DNA from: an uncultured Pseudomonadota bacterium
GTDB lineage: Bacteria > Pseudomonadota > Alphaproteobacteria > UBA3830
DNA length: 49,480 nt
Reading direction: 5' to 3'
Assembly (NCBI GenBank): GCA_902796155.1
Contig: CADBNZ010000050.1
Span: 1 to 49,480 of the forward strand
This document shows positions 2,740 to 49,455 of the stretch, piece by piece. The position numbers were made by a program, and so were the translations under genes. The stretch's first letter is position 1, and the number at the start of each line of letters is the position of its first letter. The notes under the pieces were generated by a model. It was not told the DNA's origin, did not search any database, and saw nothing but the letters and a program-made list of their open reading frames with translations.

Positions 2740-3573
2740 TCAATCTTCAGGATCAGATTTCCACTGTTTCGTCTTTATAAAATCATCAAAACGTTTTCTT
2801 TCTGTTTCAAAATCTACTGTACGGATTTTCATATGTTTCATTTTTGTATATTCGACGCAGGTACAAGGAATTTCTAACTCCTTGCATACCTTAAAAACAG
2901 ACTGAATATTTTTCATTTTATCGTCAATGAATATAATTCTTGAAAATCTCATCGGAACGTGTTTCAAAAAATAACTTAAAACAACACCTTTTTCAATTTT
3001 ACATCCGAAAATCATTCCGTCATCTAATTTCGGATGAAGCTTTATGCCATCTCTAACTTTAGACAGGTCATAAAATATGAAGTTTGGACAATCAAGCCAA
3101 GACTTCTTAAAATCAAAATTAAGATGGGTTAATTCAGCTTTTCTTGTATCTTCAACCCGTTCTATATTGCGCCAATTACCAGCCCAGTGAGACGTTAGCA
3201 AAAGAACCCTTACTCCTTTTGCTTGCAAGTTTTGAATAATATTCGGGAAATTTTTATTCACCAATTTTATCGGATATTGTTTCCGCATTTCGATAAACAG
3301 ATCGTCTGCTGCCTCTTTCCCAATTTTATTTCGTAGATACGATATAATTTTTTTGCAAATTTCAGAGTTGTTTGGGTAATAGAGAGCATCTTTAGGGGCA
3401 ATCAAAACAAAATCACTATCAAAGATAACTAACGTGTTAGGATCGGCTTCTTTCAGAATGTTTTCAACGTATTCATCATTGTTTGTAGAAATAATTTCTG
3501 ATTTTTCTGTAAAAGAGCAAGCTGTTAAAACTCCTAAAACCAAAATTACCAAATACTGAATAATTTTTCGCAT
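2740..3573 (-). CDS. DUF2608-like HAD-superfamily lipoprotein (copy 1)
   Basis: A 277-residue paralogue of the adjacent downstream gene, sharing long blocks such as NFPNIIQNLQAKGVRVLLLT and the near-identical C-terminal KRFDDFIKTKQWKSDPED. The N-terminus is a clean lipoprotein signal with lipobox LTAC at Cys19, and GAGAGAAAGCT lies before the ATG. HAD motifs are present: IFDSDFVL with two Asp residues, VLLLTSH, and IIFIDDKMKN. The family is known from Legionella and amoeba-associated bacteria, with no firm function. The tandem arrangement points to a local duplication followed by divergence, with the middle third (substrate cap region) differing most. Confidence 0.8.
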   Translation of the reverse strand: MRKIIQYLVILVLGVLTACSFTEKSEIISTNNDEYVENILKEADPNTLVIFDSDFVLIAPKDALYYPNNSEICKKIISYLRNKIGKEAADDLFIEMRKQYPIKLVNKNFPNIIQNLQAKGVRVLLLTSHWAGNWRNIERVEDTRKAELTHLNFDFKKSWLDCPNFIFYDLSKVRDGIKLHPKLDDGMIFGCKIEKGVVLSYFLKHVPMRFSRIIFIDDKMKNIQSVFKVCKELEIPCTCVEYTKMKHMKIRTVDFETERKRFDDFIKTKQWKSDPED

Positions 3574-6815: not shown

Positions 6816-8078
6816 TTATAGCCTTCTCATTATCAAACTTGCGTTTGTTCCGCCAAATCCGAAAGAGTTAGACATCGCATATTCGATCTTTCGTTGTTTT
6901 GGCCGTAACGGCACAAGATCCAAGAAAGTTTCCTCAGAATCATGCAGGTTCAATGTAGCCGGAGCGACTTGGTCTCTCATCGCAAGTATGGAGAAAATGG
7001 CCTCAACAGCTCCCGCAGCACCAAGCAAATGTCCAATTGCGGACTTCGTCGACGACATAGATGCCTTTGTCCCTTCCCCAAGAAGGCGCTCCACGGCCCT
7101 CAGCTCGCCTACATCTCCAGCCGGAGTAGATGTTCCGTGAGCGTTTATGTAGTCTATGTCATCATGAGAAAGATTGGCAGACCGTAAAGCCTCACGCATT
7201 GCCCTGTAGGCTCCGTCGCCATCTGCAAGAGGCGCTGTAACGTGATACGCGTCTCCCGACATTCCATATCCAACGACTTCGCCATATATTTTTGCTCCAC
7301 GCTTGACTGCGTGTTCTATTTCCTCAAGAACAACGATTCCAGAGCCTTCTGCCATGATAAAACCATCACGCGACTTATCCCAAGGTCTCGATGCTTCTTC
7401 CGGAGTGTCATTTCTGCCTGTTGAAAGCGCTCTAGCCGCAGAAAAACCAGCGATACCAGCACGACAAACAGCCGCTTCTGTTCCTCCTGCAACCATGACA
7501 TCAGCTGAACCGACCTGAATAATCCTCGCTGCGTCACCAATAGCATGCGTTCCTGTAGCGCAAGCTGTAACAACTGAATGATTCGGCCCTTTTAAACCAA
7601 ATTTTATCGAAACGTGCCCCGAAGCTAAGTTAATCAATGATGACGGAATAAAAAACGGAGAAACTCGTCTCGCTCCGTTCTCATGCATATTAACAGATGT
7701 TTCGTAAATTGCGGGAAGTCCGCCAATTCCCGAGCCAATTAAAACGCCCGTGCGTTCTTTTTCCGTATCACTAAATGAATCTACACCAGAATCGGCAATT
7801 GCTTCCGACGCAGCAGCAATAGCATACACAATAAATGTATCTATCCTGTTGAGTTCTCTGGCTGTCACATAATTTAAAGGATCGAAGAGAGTATCTGCTT
7901 TCTGTTCGACATGCTCTGACGGAACCTGTCCGGCAATTTTGCACACCAAATCGCTCACATCGAACGACTTGACCTTTTTTATGCCCGACTCACAGTTAAG
8001 TAGACGCCGCCAAGACTCCACAGTTCCCACTGCCAGCGGAGAAACCATACCAAGGCCGGTTATAACTACCCTCTTCAT
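6816..8078 (-). CDS. fabF: beta-ketoacyl-ACP synthase II FabF
   Basis: The condensing enzyme that elongates acyl-ACP with malonyl-ACP in type II fatty acid synthesis. The 420-residue protein has the Cys-His-His triad: Cys173 in VVTACATGTHA, His314 in INAHGTSTPAGD and His350 in KSAIGHLLGAAG. The glycine-rich end NSFGFGGTNAS is present. AAGGA lies a few bases before the ATG. It follows acpP by 10 bases on the same strand, the common acpP-fabF pair, so substrate carrier and enzyme are co-expressed. Length and motifs are ordinary. Confidence 0.97.
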   Translation of the reverse strand: MKRVVITGLGMVSPLAVGTVESWRRLLNCESGIKKVKSFDVSDLVCKIAGQVPSEHVEQKADTLFDPLNYVTARELNRIDTFIVYAIAAASEAIADSGVDSFSDTEKERTGVLIGSGIGGLPAIYETSVNMHENGARRVSPFFIPSSLINLASGHVSIKFGLKGPNHSVVTACATGTHAIGDAARIIQVGSADVMVAGGTEAAVCRAGIAGFSAARALSTGRNDTPEEASRPWDKSRDGFIMAEGSGIVVLEEIEHAVKRGAKIYGEVVGYGMSGDAYHVTAPLADGDGAYRAMREALRSANLSHDDIDYINAHGTSTPAGDVGELRAVERLLGEGTKASMSSTKSAIGHLLGAAGAVEAIFSILAMRDQVAPATLNLHDSEETFLDLVPLRPKQRKIEYAMSNSFGFGGTNASLIMRRL

Positions 8079-8088
8079 TAATTAATCC

Positions 8089-8331
8089 TTATTTTCCGCA
8101 TTTATTTTCGATAAAGCTGATCGCATCTTTAACAGATTGAATCTCTTGCCCTTCTTTGTTGGAAATTTCAATGTTGAATTCTTCCTCGAGAGCCATGACG
8201 AGATCAACTGTGTCCAAGCTGTCCGCACCGAAATCATCAACGAAGCGCGCTTCATCTGTCACTTTCGCGATATCGACGCCTAGCTTGTCAGCGATAATCT
8301 TCTTTACTTTATCAGCAACGTTTTCACTCAT
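8089..8331 (-). CDS. acpP: acyl carrier protein AcpP
   Basis: The small acidic carrier of growing fatty acyl chains, 80 residues. The phosphopantetheine attachment site is Ser38 in [19 protein letters not shown]. The ATG at 8331 gives the usual N-terminus ([13 protein letters not shown]); an ATG two codons upstream at 8337 is nearer the AGGGA ribosome site and could be used instead. It heads the acpP-fabF pair. fabD and fabG, which often precede acpP, are not upstream here: that side holds mobile-element remnants. Confidence 0.96.
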
Positions 8332-8454
8332 AATCATTTTCCCTAAAAATAAACACAAGCAGGAAATTAGCACAAAACGATCGAAAATGAAAGAATAAGT
8401 GCAACGAATAGGGAAAGTTATTCATTTAATCCTCAAATTTAATAAATGGATGAC

Positions 8455-8474
8455 CTATCGGCTAAAGCCGATAG
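8455..8474. repeat. perfect 8-bp hairpin, likely IS200/IS605-type end
   Basis: CTATCGGC and GCCGATAG form a perfect stem with a TAAA loop. There is no T-run, so it is a poor intrinsic terminator. It lies 65 bases beyond the stop of a decayed tnpA fragment, where IS200/IS605 elements carry the subterminal hairpin that their transposase recognises. The link to that element is inference. Confidence 0.45.
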
Positions 8475-8539
8475 CGCCGTAGTCTGATTGGAAAGTGGAT
8501 AAAAGACTAAAATTTCAAAATTTTGATATTCTGAAATTA

Positions 8540-8660
8540 TCATACTTCATGATGCTCTTCTTGCTATTCTATGTATCTATGCACATCTTCTATATTGAGG
8601 GTTTCGGCTGTTACAGAAAAATATCCTTTAGCCCAAATATACTGACCCAATATCTATAAA
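8540..8660 (-). pseudogene. 3' fragment of an IS200/IS605-type tnpA (Y1 transposase)
   Basis: The minus strand here reads GQYIWAKGYFSVTAETLNIEDVHRYIE, a stop, then QEEHHEV and a final stop at 8540-8542. The order W-A-K-G-Y-F, then V-T, then a helix ending in Y-I-x-x-Q fits the C-terminal end of the Y1 single-strand transposase family, where the tyrosine of this last helix is the nucleophile. One in-frame TAG interrupts the end and another lies upstream of the fragment. The metal-binding HUH part is not recognisable, so the element is dead. Confidence 0.6.
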
Positions 8661-8929
8661 ACCTCTTGCAAAATTAATTTTAAGAACTTTTTAGATTCTG
8701 ATAATCAAAGGTTAAAAAAGGCTAATTTCGACTTTCGCAAGAACTCTATTCTTCAACTTTTCGAACGCTTGTTGTAATTTTCGACTACTCTTACCTTTTA
8801 TGTATTAATGTATTATTACACTGCATTCAATATTAATATATGTGTCGGCACCGACATTAATAATATATACTGCTCCGAACATATATTCTTGTTTATTATA
8901 TCTATTCGAAAGCTATTTCCTGGACAGAA
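8661..8929. other. non-coding stretch with a dyad, next to mobile-element remains
   Basis: About 270 bases with no credible gene. It is AT-rich and contains an inverted repeat at about 8831-8866, with core TGTCGG-CA-CCGACA flanked by TTAATA-like arms. It may be the remaining left part of the IS200-type relic, or a protein-binding site. Nothing else is seen in it. Confidence 0.3.
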
Positions 8930-8937
8930 ATGAATTT
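8930..8937. repeat. 8-bp target-site duplication, left copy
   Basis: ATGAATTT directly abuts the left inverted repeat of the IS1595-family element and is repeated exactly at 9662-9669. Eight bases is the duplication length known for this IS family. Confidence 0.9.
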
Positions 8938-9661
8938 GGCTCTAGACCAGCATTGAGGTAAGGATGTATGGTATAAGGCATGAGATACAGCAGATTAAAC
9001 AGATATAAGATCAAAAAAATAATTGAATGTTTTAATGAAGACATAACGGCAAGTTCGGCGGCGAAAATTCTGAAGTTAAATCGTAAAACGGTGAACAGCT
9101 ATTACAACGAGTTTTGGAGACTGATATTAGAGCATTCACTGCGAGAACAAGAGAAGGAATTAGGCGAGTTTGAGTTAGATGCAAGCTACTTTGGAGCGCG
9201 ACGAGTCAGAGGTAAACGAGGCCGTGGAGCGGCTGGAAAAACGCCAGTTTTCGGGCTTTTGAAAAGGAACGGGAAGGTATTTGTGACAATCGTCCCGAAC
9301 TGCTCTCGAGAAGAATTAATGCCGATTATTCAGGGAAAAATTCTCGAGGGCTCAACGATTCATACCGATGGCTGGAAAGCCTACGATGGTCTGATTCTCA
9401 ACGGTTACACCCATTACAGAGTATTTCATCATGAAAATGAATTTGCTCGCGGAAAGTCTCATGTTAACGGCATCGAGTGCTTTTGGAGTTATACCAAAAG
9501 ACGCTTATCAAAATTCAACGGTTTAAGCGATAATAAATTCATCTTGCATTTAAAAGAAAGTGAGGCTAGATTTAATCATAGAGATGATGATTTTGCTGCT
9601 TTTGTTGCAAAATTATTCTTTGTAAAAAAGTAAAATCAAAAAAAGATACTGGTCTAGAGCC
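8938..9661 (+). mobile_element. complete IS1595-family insertion sequence (724 bp)
   Basis: The element is bounded by perfect 13-bp terminal inverted repeats, GGCTCTAGACCAG at 8938-8950 and its complement at 9649-9661, and flanked by 8-bp direct repeats ATGAATTT. It carries one intact transposase gene (8980-9633) reading away from the left end. Intact ends, target duplication and gene together indicate a fairly recent transposition. It landed in non-coding DNA between the IS200-type relic and rpmB, so no gene was visibly broken. The size is typical of the small IS1016-like subgroup. Confidence 0.92.
8980..9633 (+). CDS. IS1595-family transposase (ISXO2-like DDE domain)
   Basis: A 217-residue transposase of the IS1016-like branch of the IS1595 family. 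The N-terminal third holds a helix-turn-helix (SAAKILKLNRKTVNSYYNEF). The ISXO2-like catalytic domain begins at ELDASYFGARR (first Asp) and continues with GKTPVFGLLKRNGKV, STIHTDGWKAYDGL (second Asp) and HVNGIECFWSYTKRRL, which holds the third acidic/Asn site of this DDN/E family. The frame is uninterrupted and the gene sits neatly within the inverted repeats. The zinc-ribbon seen at the N-terminus of longer family members is absent, as in the short branch. It is likely functional. Confidence 0.93.
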   Translation: MRYSRLNRYKIKKIIECFNEDITASSAAKILKLNRKTVNSYYNEFWRLILEHSLREQEKELGEFELDASYFGARRVRGKRGRGAAGKTPVFGLLKRNGKVFVTIVPNCSREELMPIIQGKILEGSTIHTDGWKAYDGLILNGYTHYRVFHHENEFARGKSHVNGIECFWSYTKRRLSKFNGLSDNKFILHLKESEARFNHRDDDFAAFVAKLFFVKK

Positions 9662-9669
9662 ATGAATTT
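9662..9669. repeat. 8-bp target-site duplication, right copy
   Basis: ATGAATTT immediately follows the right inverted repeat and matches 8930-8937 exactly. Confidence 0.9.
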
Positions 9670-9746
9670 ATGTATACAACGATTTTTCACTCGCGAATAT
9701 CAGCACTGCTGACCGCTATCTAGAAACAATGATTTCTAAAAAATGT

Positions 9747-10040
9747 TTATTCAGCTGTAGGACAACACTTTTCTGCAATAATTTTTTTGAGTTTCCGGAA
9801 CTTTCCTGAAAGCAGACAATCGCACGTGTTAATCAAGTAATTGTCGATTCCGCCTTTCTTCTCTACCGAACGAATGGCACTTGTTGAAAGTCTCAACCTA
9901 ATCTGACGGCCAAGTTTATCGCTTAAAAAGGATACATTCTGCAAATTCGGCATGAATCTACGCTTTGTTTTGTTATTCGAATGGCTCACATTGTTTCCAT
10001 ACTGAACCTTCTTACCGGTTAACGGACAAACTTTAGACAT
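9747..10040 (-). CDS. rpmB: 50S ribosomal protein L28
   Basis: Large-subunit protein L28, 97 residues as usual in Alphaproteobacteria. The N-terminal CPLTGKKVQYGNNVSHSNNKTKRRFMPNLQ is the family signature region, and KLGRQIRLRLSTSAIRSVEKKGGIDNYL is the conserved middle. Its own promoter, with near-consensus elements, lies upstream at 10082-10110. AAAAAGGTG stands before the ATG. It is transcribed away from pyk and is not part of a rpmB-rpmG pair here. Confidence 0.97.
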   Translation of the reverse strand: MSKVCPLTGKKVQYGNNVSHSNNKTKRRFMPNLQNVSFLSDKLGRQIRLRLSTSAIRSVEKKGGIDNYLINTCDCLLSGKFRKLKKIIAEKCCPTAE

Positions 10041-10081
10041 GATTCAACACCTTTTTCATTCAAAAATCTCTAAACAACACG

Positions 10082-10110
10082 CTTATACAGCCAACAGATG
10101 TCTATGTCAA
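10082..10110 (-). promoter_or_regulatory. sigma-70 promoter of rpmB
   Basis: On the minus strand a consensus TTGACA (10110-10105) is followed after exactly 17 bases by TATAAG (10087-10082). The rpmB start lies about 40 bases downstream. It is one of the two best promoters in the window, which fits a highly expressed ribosomal gene. Confidence 0.75.
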
Positions 10111-10276
10111 GGCACATTAATATAGTTTGATGCGCAATTTGATTAGAGATTACGAACTTATTCGAGATTTTTATCTTTTTGTTTTAATTTTTTTTATGGA
10201 TTTATAAATTTTTTAACATTATACTTTATACTTCTTAAAAAGGGACTTTTCGGTTTTAATTTAATTAGGAGATATT

Positions 10277-46141: not shown

Positions 46142-46543
46142 TTAAGCAGCTTGAGATGATTGTGTATCAGCTGAAAAAGCTTCTACATACACACCTGTTT
46201 TCGTAAAAACGGGAGTTAGTTTCTCATTTGTATCATATCCGATCGGAGATTCGTACTTACTCATATCTTTTGAAATAAGATTCTGATCGGTAAGAGCTTT
46301 CAGCATAAAATATGCTTCCTTATATACTTCGCTTTTCTTGCTGTCGGCATCAAATATATTTATTGCGTTTCCATTCTCAAAATAAGTTTCGCGAACATAA
46401 CTGTCCAGAATGTAACTATTAATAGATTGAAGCATAGGAATAACACACTCTTTTGATTGATTCATAGCAACATAATCGTTTACTTGCTGAAGAGTATCTA
46501 CATCATCATCTTTAATAATCGCGTCGACCCTGTCTTGTTGCAT
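46142..46543 (-). CDS. small acidic protein of unknown function
   Basis: A 133-residue protein I do not recognise. It has no signal peptide or membrane segment, is acidic at the N-terminus (DAIIKDDDVDTL), and is mainly helical with a short beta-like end (TPVFTKTGVYVEAFSADT). GAGGAAAAAAAA directly before the ATG at 46543 supports translation. It is about 100 bases upstream of proS on the same strand and divergent from the broken STAND-like regulator at 46701, with a shared AT-rich gap. It could be regulated by, or acquired with, that gene, but nothing proves this. Confidence 0.55.
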   Translation of the reverse strand: MQQDRVDAIIKDDDVDTLQQVNDYVAMNQSKECVIPMLQSINSYILDSYVRETYFENGNAINIFDADSKKSEVYKEAYFMLKALTDQNLISKDMSKYESPIGYDTNEKLTPVFTKTGVYVEAFSADTQSSQAA

Positions 46544-46643
46544 TTTTTTTCCTCATAAGTTTTTATCAACAAAACTACTTTAGTACCCATTTATACTTAT
46601 TTTTAATACTAAAAAAATAATTATATGAATAATTAAAAAATAA

Positions 46644-46673
46644 TTAACACAAATAAATACGATGATGTAAAAT
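46644..46673 (+). promoter_or_regulatory. candidate promoter of the HTH-STAND gene
   Basis: TTAACA (46644-46649) and TAAAAT (46668-46673) lie 18 bases apart, 28 bases before the ATG at 46701. The surrounding DNA is over 80 percent A+T, so this is a weak call. Confidence 0.3.
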
Positions 46674-46700
46674 CATTATTATAGGTCAGGTCAGTTTGAT

Positions 46701-49131
46701 ATGGAGCATTTACAGAATAACAATAATATTGTTTTTACGGACAGAGAAGCTGATATTATTGCGTGCCTCATAAATGGTAATACAGCAAAATCTATAGCTG
46801 ATTTGCTCTCAATCTCTCCTAATACTGCTAATGTTCATATAAGAAATATTATGCAGAAAATAGACGGCGCTTCGAAAAATGATTTGGTAAAATATATCGA
46901 ACAATCTTCTCAATATAAAATTTTTCGAGACCGTTATGATAATTTGATAAGACTCAAGAAATTTTATGAACTTTTGAGAAAATTATCTAAGTTAGCGATT
47001 GAGAAAAAAAGTTGTTGTATAAGATTTAATGAAGAATGTAGTGCATATGTAGAGTTAATTAATTGCTTAAAAACAGCAGGAATTAATACATATATTTATG
47101 ATGAGGAACCAAAATCGAAAGATTGTATTTATATCATTTGTTCAGAGAATCTCTCGAACATATCAGATGTAAAAAATACCATAATATTCACAAAGAATGC
47201 CGGAAAAAATCTTTCACAAAACATAATAGAATATGAGCACAATCTGCCAGATGCTATTTTAAAATGCATCGGAAAAATCTATGCGGAAAATAATGAGATT
47301 CAGTCTTTAATAGCCGCATTTTCTCCGTTTAATTCAGAAAAAGAAAATAAAGGAAACTTAACTCAAATAATTTCCGAACAAAAATTTATAAAACGTAGAA
47401 AATATTTTCTAATCATAAATGCCATTGTAGCTATTAGTTTTATTTCTTTGATTGCTACTAAATTTTTTCATGAAAAAATTTCGGTAAAATCGAATGTTCC
47501 CGTAATTTTTAAAGATGTTTTTTTAGAACGTGCAGATATTGAAGAGAAAATAGATCAGGCATTCGGAAATGGTAAAATAAAAGTTGCGGTTTTGGTTGGG
47601 TACGGTGGAACAGGAAAAACAACTATCGCAAGGCATTATCTTAAGTCGCAAATTAAAACAATATTCTTTGGCTTATACAAAAGGATCAAAGATTTTTATT
47701 CACAGATCTACTAAAGAGATAGGCCAAAAATATTTATTGAATCTTATTCCTGAAAATGAAAGAAATAGAGTTATCGGAAAGATTGTCGAAGCAATGACAC
47801 CATATGAATGCTTGCTATGGTATTCGTATAATAATCAAGAAATGCAACTAAGCTACAAAGAAATAAGCGCGATCATACCCCATTTAGAGAGCTTAAAAAG
47901 CACAATAATTTCAATGCCTTTAGGTGAATCAGAAAAAGAAAAATATATTGTAAGAATTATGTTAGCACTGCTTTATGCATACGTTCCTGAAGCAAATGAA
48001 CAAAAAATGAGAGAGTTGGCAGAGGAGATTATTCAGCGAAACAAGGGCTTTATAAAAGGTTATGATTTGGCTGCGCTATTTCTTGAGCATACATACTGCG
48101 GAATAGGTTATTTATCTGATAAAGATGAGAAATATTTGAAAAGATGTATTGAACTTTGTACACAATTAAAAGCCAATCATTTATTGGCTATCACTTATAT
48201 ATATTTGTCTTTGTATTTTTCTGAAAGAAAAGAAATCGAACTTTACAGACATTTTTTGCGCGAATCGATGAAATTGGCAGAAGAAATAAAAACAAGAATG
48301 TTATTGAATTATCGTTACTGCGAAGTCGCTTTATCTTTATGTAGCTCTAAAAAAGAACTGGAAGATGTTTTGAATTATACTTTGGAAACATTAAAAATAC
48401 TTGGTGTATCTCATTTCTTTTATAAAACAAGTGAAGAGTATGCAGATAAAGGAGCATCAAAGAATTGCATTGCTGCTCTTAGAAGAATCATGGTCAGAAT
48501 ATATAATCGTCTGGAAAAGTACGATGATGCAATTGAAAATTATAAGGAAGCATCTTATTTCTATGCAAAAAGGAGAGAAAAAGGAAACAGAATACCTATA
48601 AAACGAGAAACAGCTTTAGAAATAGAGCATGCGAATACTTTATTACGAATAAATCGAGTTTCGGAAGCGAGGAACAAACTTGAACAGGCAATAAAAGCAA
48701 AAGTGGAACATAGTTATAATCATGGTTTGTTCCAAGCTTTTATTTATAAGGCTGAAGCTGATTTTCGATTAGGAAAGTTAGGTGAAGCTTATGATGATTG
48801 TTTGAATGCTTTGAAATACAAAGAAAAATCTGAATCGAATTTTATGCATTTGCTGAATATGCGTTTGCATTACATAATGGCGATTACAAAATATAAGCTT
48901 GGTGATTCGCGAAAAGCGATTGAATATTTCAAAACATTTGTAGCTCTTGCCAAAATATGGTTTTCAAATTATTCGGATAATAATTCAGGATACGAAAAGA
49001 TCTTGGATGAAAAAATATTTTCCGGATCAACAGATACAAAAATTGAAGATTATTTTAGAGGCAGCTTAAAAATATTCACTGAAATTTACGGAAAAAAACA
49101 TTCGTTTGTAAAAAATTTTGTTAGCTTATAA
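46701..49131 (+). pseudogene. membrane-anchored LuxR-HTH / STAND NTPase / TPR protein, central domain lost
   Basis: The first part (46701-47714) has a LuxR/GerE-type HTH at residues 11-55 (FTDREADIIACLINGNTAKSIADLL, SISPNTANVHIRNIMQKI), an unknown alpha/beta region (about 100-200), a membrane helix at 235-256, then LERADIEEKIDQAF and Walker A GYGGTGKTT (300-308) as in NB-ARC/STAND proteins. The frame then fails. From about 47660 a second frame gives SLAYTKGSKIFIHRSTKEIGQKYLLN and a long helical tail with TPR-like units (YDDAIENYKEASYFYAKRR; LGEAYDDCLNALKYKEKSE) to 49131. Walker B and the rest of the NTPase domain are absent, so an internal deletion with frame change has joined the ends. The gene is probably dead. 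The part before the break could still make an HTH-membrane protein. Confidence 0.75.
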
Positions 49132-49194: not shown

Positions 49195-49455
49195 TTAGCC
49201 TTCTATCGCTTCGACAGAAACCATACTTCTTCCGCTGGAATTTTTCGAAAACCTCACTACGCCGCTTGCTGTAGCAAATAAAGTATGATCTTTGCCGATA
49301 CCAACATTCGCTCCAGCCTTGATTTTTGTTCCTCTCTGTCTTACAAGAATGTTTCCAGCCAACACGCTTTGACCGCCATAGCGCTTTACTCCCAAGCGTT
49401 TACTTTCAGAATCTCTTCCGTTTTTGGAACTACCGCCAGCTTTTTTGGTTGCCAT
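49195..49455 (-). CDS. rpmA: 50S ribosomal protein L27
   Basis: A ribosomal protein whose N-terminus reaches the peptidyl transferase centre. The 86 residues open [29 protein letters not shown], the form without a cleaved extension, and continue with [36 protein letters not shown] lies before the ATG at 49455. rplU is expected upstream, beyond the end of the window. Confidence 0.97.

Follow-up and report, generated by a model that had tools for sequence, protein, structure and literature searches.

Regulators of the ToxR/CadC type have an N-terminal cytoplasmic DNA-binding domain, an OmpR-type winged helix, followed by one membrane helix and a C-terminal extracytoplasmic sensor. MalT and other LAL regulators instead combine a LuxR-type helix-turn-helix (HTH), a STAND ATPase and a TPR-like sensor in one chain, with MalT being soluble and carrying its HTH at the C-terminus. 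In AfsR and other large SARPs, an N-terminal DNA-binding domain precedes the NOD/NB-ARC and TPR regions, and in AfsR ATP binding relieves the inhibition exerted by NOD and TPR while the oligomeric state stays unchanged (PMC10936776).

Known regulators are few in intracellular Alphaproteobacteria, and how these bacteria sense their hosts is largely open. The stretch of DNA analyzed here (the window; 49,480 bp) forms contig C50 in the genome (1.07 Mb, 79% completeness) of an uncultured alphaproteobacterium (UBA3830). Close to the 3′ end of the window lies a gene that we read, with a probability of roughly 0.6, as belonging to a family of ToxR/CadC-like regulators with one membrane pass in intracellular Alphaproteobacteria, and as having been inactivated recently; the STAND sensor of these regulators would lie outside the inner membrane. 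A preliminary description made from the letters alone had proposed the order HTH, membrane helix, P-loop and TPR, which Pfam searches and hydropathy bear out for the window gene, and the helix it placed at residues 235–256 corresponds to the hydrophobic segment listed in Table 1. It overlooked two further elements, a TIR-like domain filling the interval between the HTH and the helix and a divergent gene of 133 aa, a possible partner. The DNA-binding domain belongs to the GerE (LuxR) family, with no Pfam match to a Trans_reg_C, OmpR-type or BTA domain. The Pfam AAA_16/NB-ARC match is weak in the window copy because the domain is truncated, and NB-ARC is recognized at E 9.7e-7 in the intact orthologue described below. 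Directly 3′ of the regulator gene, we noted an ORF resembling, by eye, ribosomal protein L27 (rpmA; 49195–49455), and, at the far end of the window, two neighboring, similar, Cys-rich lipoprotein-like genes on the minus strand (1840–2733 and 2740–3573).

Table 1. Features of the regulator locus, in window positions.
Feature	Position	Strand	Description or evidence
Divergent 133-aa gene, candidate target or partner of the regulator	46142..46543	-	Synteny; dN/dS 0.12
Intergenic footprint, candidate operator/promoter	46574..46653	.	Conservation with L042 and in G008
ORF 46701-47714	46701..47714	+	337 aa; GerE/LuxR HTH, membrane segment, Walker A
N-terminal LuxR/GerE-type HTH, residues 1-75	46701..46925	+	Pfam GerE E 8.2e-14 (match = residues 11-65)
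Degenerate TIR-like domain, residues about 86-217	46956..47351	+	Profile-profile comparison
Single membrane helix, residues 235-253 (YFLIINAIVAISFISLIAT)	47403..47459	+	Mean Kyte-Doolittle 2.25 over 19 residues
Start of NB-ARC including Walker A (GYGGTGKTT, 47598-47624)	47508..47652	+	Remainder deleted
ORF 47584-49131	47584..49131	+	TPRs (TPR_12, E 7.3e-9); +1 frame relative to ORF 46701-47714
Junction of the 758-bp frame-shifting deletion	47652..47653	.	Pairwise alignment with L042
Out-of-frame remainder: NB-ARC end (MHD-like IHRST) and TPR sensor	47653..49131	+	TPR_12; 83% identity to the C-part of L042

An intact syntenic orthologue of 1066 aa (L042:3294–6494) is encoded on contig CAJODB010000012.1 (L042, identical with G005:C12), which belongs to a red-deer MAG. 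Upstream of the regulator, the two contigs share the proS, lolC-like and 133-aa genes; on the 3′ side the synteny breaks, with a cation-efflux gene in L042 where the window has the rpmA-like ORF. A loss after Walker A, resuming in another frame from about 47660, had already been suspected, and alignment with L042 confirms it and gives it a size: exactly 758 bp (L042 4243–5000; residues 317–569) are missing, comprising almost all of NB-ARC beyond Walker A, and since 758 is not divisible by 3 the frame changes. Walker A and the MHD-like end are the only STAND motifs left. Having lost its frame along with Walker B and the sensor motifs, the window copy cannot switch, and it would yield, at most, a constitutively tethered HTH.

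The flanks of the deletion are 83% identical to L042 over 4.2 kb and 1.5 kb, with no further stop or frameshift in either remaining half in this alignment, and dN/dS comes to 0.10 in the C-part and 0.24 in the N-part, where the HTH taken singly gives 0.16 and the middle domain 0.37. Given halves that are otherwise open and show past purifying selection, either this is one recent lesion or the assembly is wrong here. The second alternative, with the gene intact in the organism, strikes us as unlikely: although the deletion is known from a single MAG contig, 0.3 kb from whose end the gene lies, and neither half carries another lesion, the junction is clean, both flanks are colinear with the orthologue, and the breakpoints show no repeat that could account for the junction or a collapse. 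We regard the window copy as most likely a young pseudogene, recently inactivated. It is improbable, in our judgment, that the copy still functions in truncated form, the 337-aa product acting as a membrane-tethered HTH with a constitutive or dominant-negative effect. Its frame is intact through HTH, TIR-like domain, membrane helix and P-loop stub, and a natural mini-protein of this kind, an HTH of 109 aa stopping just past the membrane helix, exists elsewhere (see below); against this, the truncation was found in no other genome examined, and the downstream 1.5 kb, under strong constraint in the past, has not decayed, which leaves too little time since the truncation for selection on the short form to show. 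Intact copies, which the preliminary description had raised as a possibility in the form of paralogues, occur in sister genomes, while the window's own genome, as far as it is covered (79%), yielded no intact paralogue and no other sequence similar to the N-part.

Searches of the order and class, together with reading of the loci, gave a family set of 50 proteins of about 750–1240 aa from many alphaproteobacterial families whose genomes are small. All of them follow one layout, in which the HTH is succeeded by a single membrane helix, then NB-ARC, then TPR, the two exceptions (L054 and L121) differing only in that the HTH is absent from the reading frame. Thus, the two halves, which the preliminary description had considered might prove to be separate genes, belong to one chain: helix, NB-ARC and TPR are fused in 50/50 homologues and the HTH in all but two, near the N-terminus wherever it is present in full-length members. 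A membrane segment lies 40–77 residues (median 50) ahead of the P-loop in every homologue; exactly one segment exceeds a Kyte-Doolittle value of 1.6 in 46/50, two do so in 2, and two proteins fall just under the threshold. Both NB-ARC and TPR exceed their Pfam cut-offs in intact relatives, and across 20 homologues the NB-ARC motifs GxGGxGKT, LLFDN, TTRN, PxxPLD and IHR are invariant or >90% conserved, which would imply ATP binding. A structure prediction of the intact orthologue with AlphaFold2 (3-row alignment; mean pLDDT 46.5, pTM 0.35) was set aside and supports no claim made here.

The family also reaches two plasmids of Ca. Megaera polyxenophila (Rickettsiaceae), sequenced from a culture of its host ciliate Euplotes woodruffi, whose relatives have the HTH, one strong membrane helix and NB-ARC. 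On these plasmids (L145, L146; CP113872.1, CP113868.1) the family members sit within a few kb of porin genes, and the one on CP113868.1 is split into several ORFs. In another genome (G004), two family members that group as sisters on the tree stand in tandem (L043:3881–7255 and 7339–10221), one with and one without a TIR-like domain. Sampling 398 genomes across the phylum, with an unspecified share of classes other than Alphaproteobacteria, yielded no carrier apart from G155. The suggestion that these membrane STAND one-component regulators may be a family not described before holds up, given the fused architecture in 50 homologues, and the literature covered, with few subscription journals, contains no account of such an architecture. 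It is a new arrangement of familiar parts, a LuxR HTH, a TIR-like domain, a membrane helix, NB-ARC and TPR, that occurs in many lineages, with several copies in many a genome, and that is built like a host sensor.

In the long forms of the protein, 120–170 residues separate the HTH from the helix. This middle region matches Pfam TIR_2 over the cut-off in L121 (E 8.3e-7), a second protein, L139, also gives a match at a similar position, and profile comparison joins the remaining long forms to these two (99%, E 1.8e-19). The window's own clade, whose middle domain has no direct Pfam match in the window, links to the TIR-like profile built from the other family members with a probability of 97% (E 1.8e-11). 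The combined profile finds four independent TIRs at 89% (E 2.2e-6); compared directly, without intermediate sequences, the same four TIRs match the domain weakly (19%). In the window and L042, the domain is shortened and fast-evolving, and the segment expected to hold the catalytic glutamate, as judged by alignment only, is absent. When long and short forms are labeled on the NB-ARC tree, 7 changes are required, of which at least 4 are forced by well-supported branches, and the TIR-like domain has been lost several times while the HTH was kept. The form with the TIR-like domain, present in most lineages, is likely ancestral. We also considered a degenerate response-regulator receiver for the middle domain, an assignment dropped when profile comparison indicated TIR.

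A combination of NB-ARC, TIR-like domain and TPR recalls components of NLR-like receptors in bacteria and of TNL immune receptors in plants, and L121 gives a weak bSEFIR match; a defence receptor had been offered earlier as an alternative. That the protein is an NLR-like anti-phage receptor and not a transcription regulator is, in our estimation, very improbable. The window's clade retains the HTH but has a degenerate TIR-like domain that was lost several times; PADLOC returned no match for the orthologue (P0003) and only weak TPR, bSEFIR-like, CARF or NTPase cross-matches for relatives; we recognized no defence genes beside the regulator; and no relative was found on the viral contigs searched.

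Within 15 residues of the helix, Lys and Arg average 3.86 on the HTH side vs. 2.02 on the NB-ARC side, with the same bias in 42/50 proteins (p 2.5e-7). In all 12 DsbB-positive carriers tested, whose genomes are related to one another, Cys is lower in the NB-ARC-TPR part than in the N-part (p 5e-4), which fits an oxidizing periplasm where DsbB exists. DsbB-negative genomes, the window's genus among them, show no clear Cys depletion of this part, and in the window's own order exported proteins are likewise not Cys-poor, so the Cys argument fails there. The depletion could instead be a property of TPRs, Cys content showing no difference between TM and other NB-ARC forms; no Cys-matched, soluble NB-ARC control emerged, because the NB-ARC proteins examined from those genomes bore a membrane or export segment.

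Those proteins are informative in their own right. Among 20 further NB-ARC proteins (from G283, G293, G326 and G288), none was clearly cytoplasmic, and the HTH-less ones begin with signal-peptide-like segments, read from the sequence, that sit directly ahead of NB-ARC (e.g., MLNKTLLSRFLILVSIHLTAHSQ in L190 and MILKFYFKPVLFLIFFISINNLVYS in L193); the large TIR/NB-ARC proteins of L194–L196 also carry such a segment at the N-terminus. Export of NB-ARC-TPR proteins thus seems normal in these bacteria. The HTH-less NB-ARC-TPR proteins with signal-peptide-like N-termini (L190:1689–4019, L192:1612–3969, L192:4462–6171, L193:1015–3384, L182:555–2936 and L183:535–2916) are 569–793 aa long, come from G283 and G326, and appear to be STAND proteins exported by bacteria of an intracellular type. 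The large candidates for export (L194:1323–6500, L195:114–4625 and L196:638–3976) range from 1112 to >1700 aa, with L196 additionally bearing a TIR domain and Sel1 repeats.

From the charges, Cys content and signal peptides of siblings, the HTH is probably inside and the NB-ARC-TPR half outside the inner membrane. The opposite placement, with the NB-ARC-TPR half cytoplasmic, the helix lying in-plane or forming a hairpin, and the protein serving as a membrane-anchored MalT/AfsR-like regulator run on the bacterium's own ATP, would agree with the strictly conserved NB-ARC motifs, with the cytoplasm as the usual location of ATP and with a C-part whose Cys content is normal in the window's own order. 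We nevertheless consider it unlikely, if worth keeping in mind, as the span is a plain, strongly hydrophobic stretch of 19–22 residues in 50/50 proteins with a positive-inside bias for N-in, the chain cannot come back through one span, and sibling NB-ARC-TPR proteins bear signal-peptide-like N-termini.

An NB-ARC domain outside the inner membrane raises the matter of its nucleotide. We know of no precedent for a periplasmic ATP-dependent switch, and with no ATP in the bacterium's own periplasm, an NB-ARC domain there would need ATP diffusing in from the host cytosol. The ATP/ADP translocase is a mark of intracellular life, and bacteria possessing it import host ATP across the inner membrane, so host ATP must reach the periplasm. 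We detected the translocase (PF03219) in the window's own genome and in 43/46 genomes of the order examined, vs. 0/14 control genomes. It is present in 13 of the 14 strong family carriers compared to 55/385 genomes of the class sample (Fisher p 3e-11, phylogeny ignored), and in one genome (G347) the family was present and no translocase was detected. Five tlc translocases have been reported in Ca. Megaera (PMC13134042). A periplasmic NB-ARC domain could, we infer, use host ATP.

The immediate neighborhood offers candidate targets. The divergent 133-aa gene, which has no Pfam match, is confined to the 3/50 genomes of the order that hold the orthologous regulator (G000, G005 and G008), where it is always divergent from it. 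Between the two genes, 50-base windows of the footprint in Table 1 are 86–92% identical to L042, against 55–61% at 4-fold sites of the neighboring genes, and tandem repeats of AAAAAATAATTA occur at 46612–46623 and 46635–46646 with a 23-bp step. This repeat pair is unique in the window (0 expected from shuffles) and is kept in G008. On this arrangement, the 133-aa gene is likely the regulator's target. Elsewhere in the family, an intact regulator lies directly 5′ of an F-type tra operon (TraE, TraK, TrbI/TraB, TraV) in G012, and the corresponding tra-upstream position in G030 is taken by the 109-aa LuxR HTH mini-protein mentioned above (L062:5545–5874). With the 133-aa gene and footprint in the window's clade and the tra operon as neighbor in G012 and G030, local targets that differ between subfamilies are likely.

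Building on the observed order of parts, its conservation, the deletion and the translocase association, we can outline how an intact protein may work. The cytoplasm would hold the LuxR-type HTH and, in forms that have it, the degenerate TIR-like domain; one membrane helix would follow, and the NB-ARC STAND switch and TPR sensor would lie outside the inner membrane, facing the host. The TPR sensor may bind a host- or envelope-derived ligand, upon which the NB-ARC domain, loaded with nucleotide presumably drawn from the host cytosol, would open and self-associate, as in MalT and NLRs. The AfsR precedent cited above indicates that self-association on ATP binding is not a given. The single helix would convey self-association by pairing the tethered HTHs on the membrane, and the HTH dimer could then act on a nearby, usually divergent promoter, in the window's case that of the 133-aa gene, in the interval 46543–46701. 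In its full form, an extracytoplasmic NLR-like STAND receptor fed by leaked host ATP and signaling through the helix to a LuxR-type HTH, the proposal is a tentative one, and equally tentative is the picture of such a receptor as a host NLR turned inside out that lets a symbiont read its host. If the STAND half does face the host, there would be a nucleotide switch where none was expected, and sensing of host ATP or a host ligand by a symbiont would become directly testable.

Several described proteins share parts of this design. Membrane-spanning, one-component, LuxR-type regulators of Eggerthella and other Coriobacteriia show that LuxR HTHs can work from the membrane; they differ in their 10–12 N-terminal helices and C-terminal HTH, with no NB-ARC or TPR sensor described (PMC9734109). 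The nearest NCBIfam model to the NB-ARC part is that of the FxSxx-COOH system TPR protein (NF040586, E 2.6e-23), which scores L056, from another order, at 278.5 bits (E 1.4e-82) and P0003 at 82.4 bits, under the cut-off of 300 bits; its match spans neither HTH nor membrane helix. Ca. Megaera polyxenophila WPX99664 and WPX99920 are true relatives, with HTH, middle region, one membrane helix, NB-ARC and TPR, and are annotated by HTH and TPR only (‘HTH and tetratricopeptide repeat-containing protein’), the plasmid 1 copy being split. AfsR differs in its OmpR-type domain and BTA and in having no TIR-like domain, and its description, as searched, mentions no membrane part (PMC10936776). MalT lacks the membrane tether and N-terminal HTH of the family, and ToxR and CadC the LuxR/GerE HTH, the NB-ARC and TPR sensor and the optional TIR-like domain, whereas they share with the family, by sequence, an N-terminal DNA-binding domain in the cytoplasm and one membrane helix and, on the predicted topology, would share an extracytoplasmic C-terminal sensor. 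By analogy, the switch would be modeled best on AfsR and the membrane part on CadC/ToxR, and the family is a variant that newly combines membrane one-component regulators with STAND regulators, both of them known kinds.
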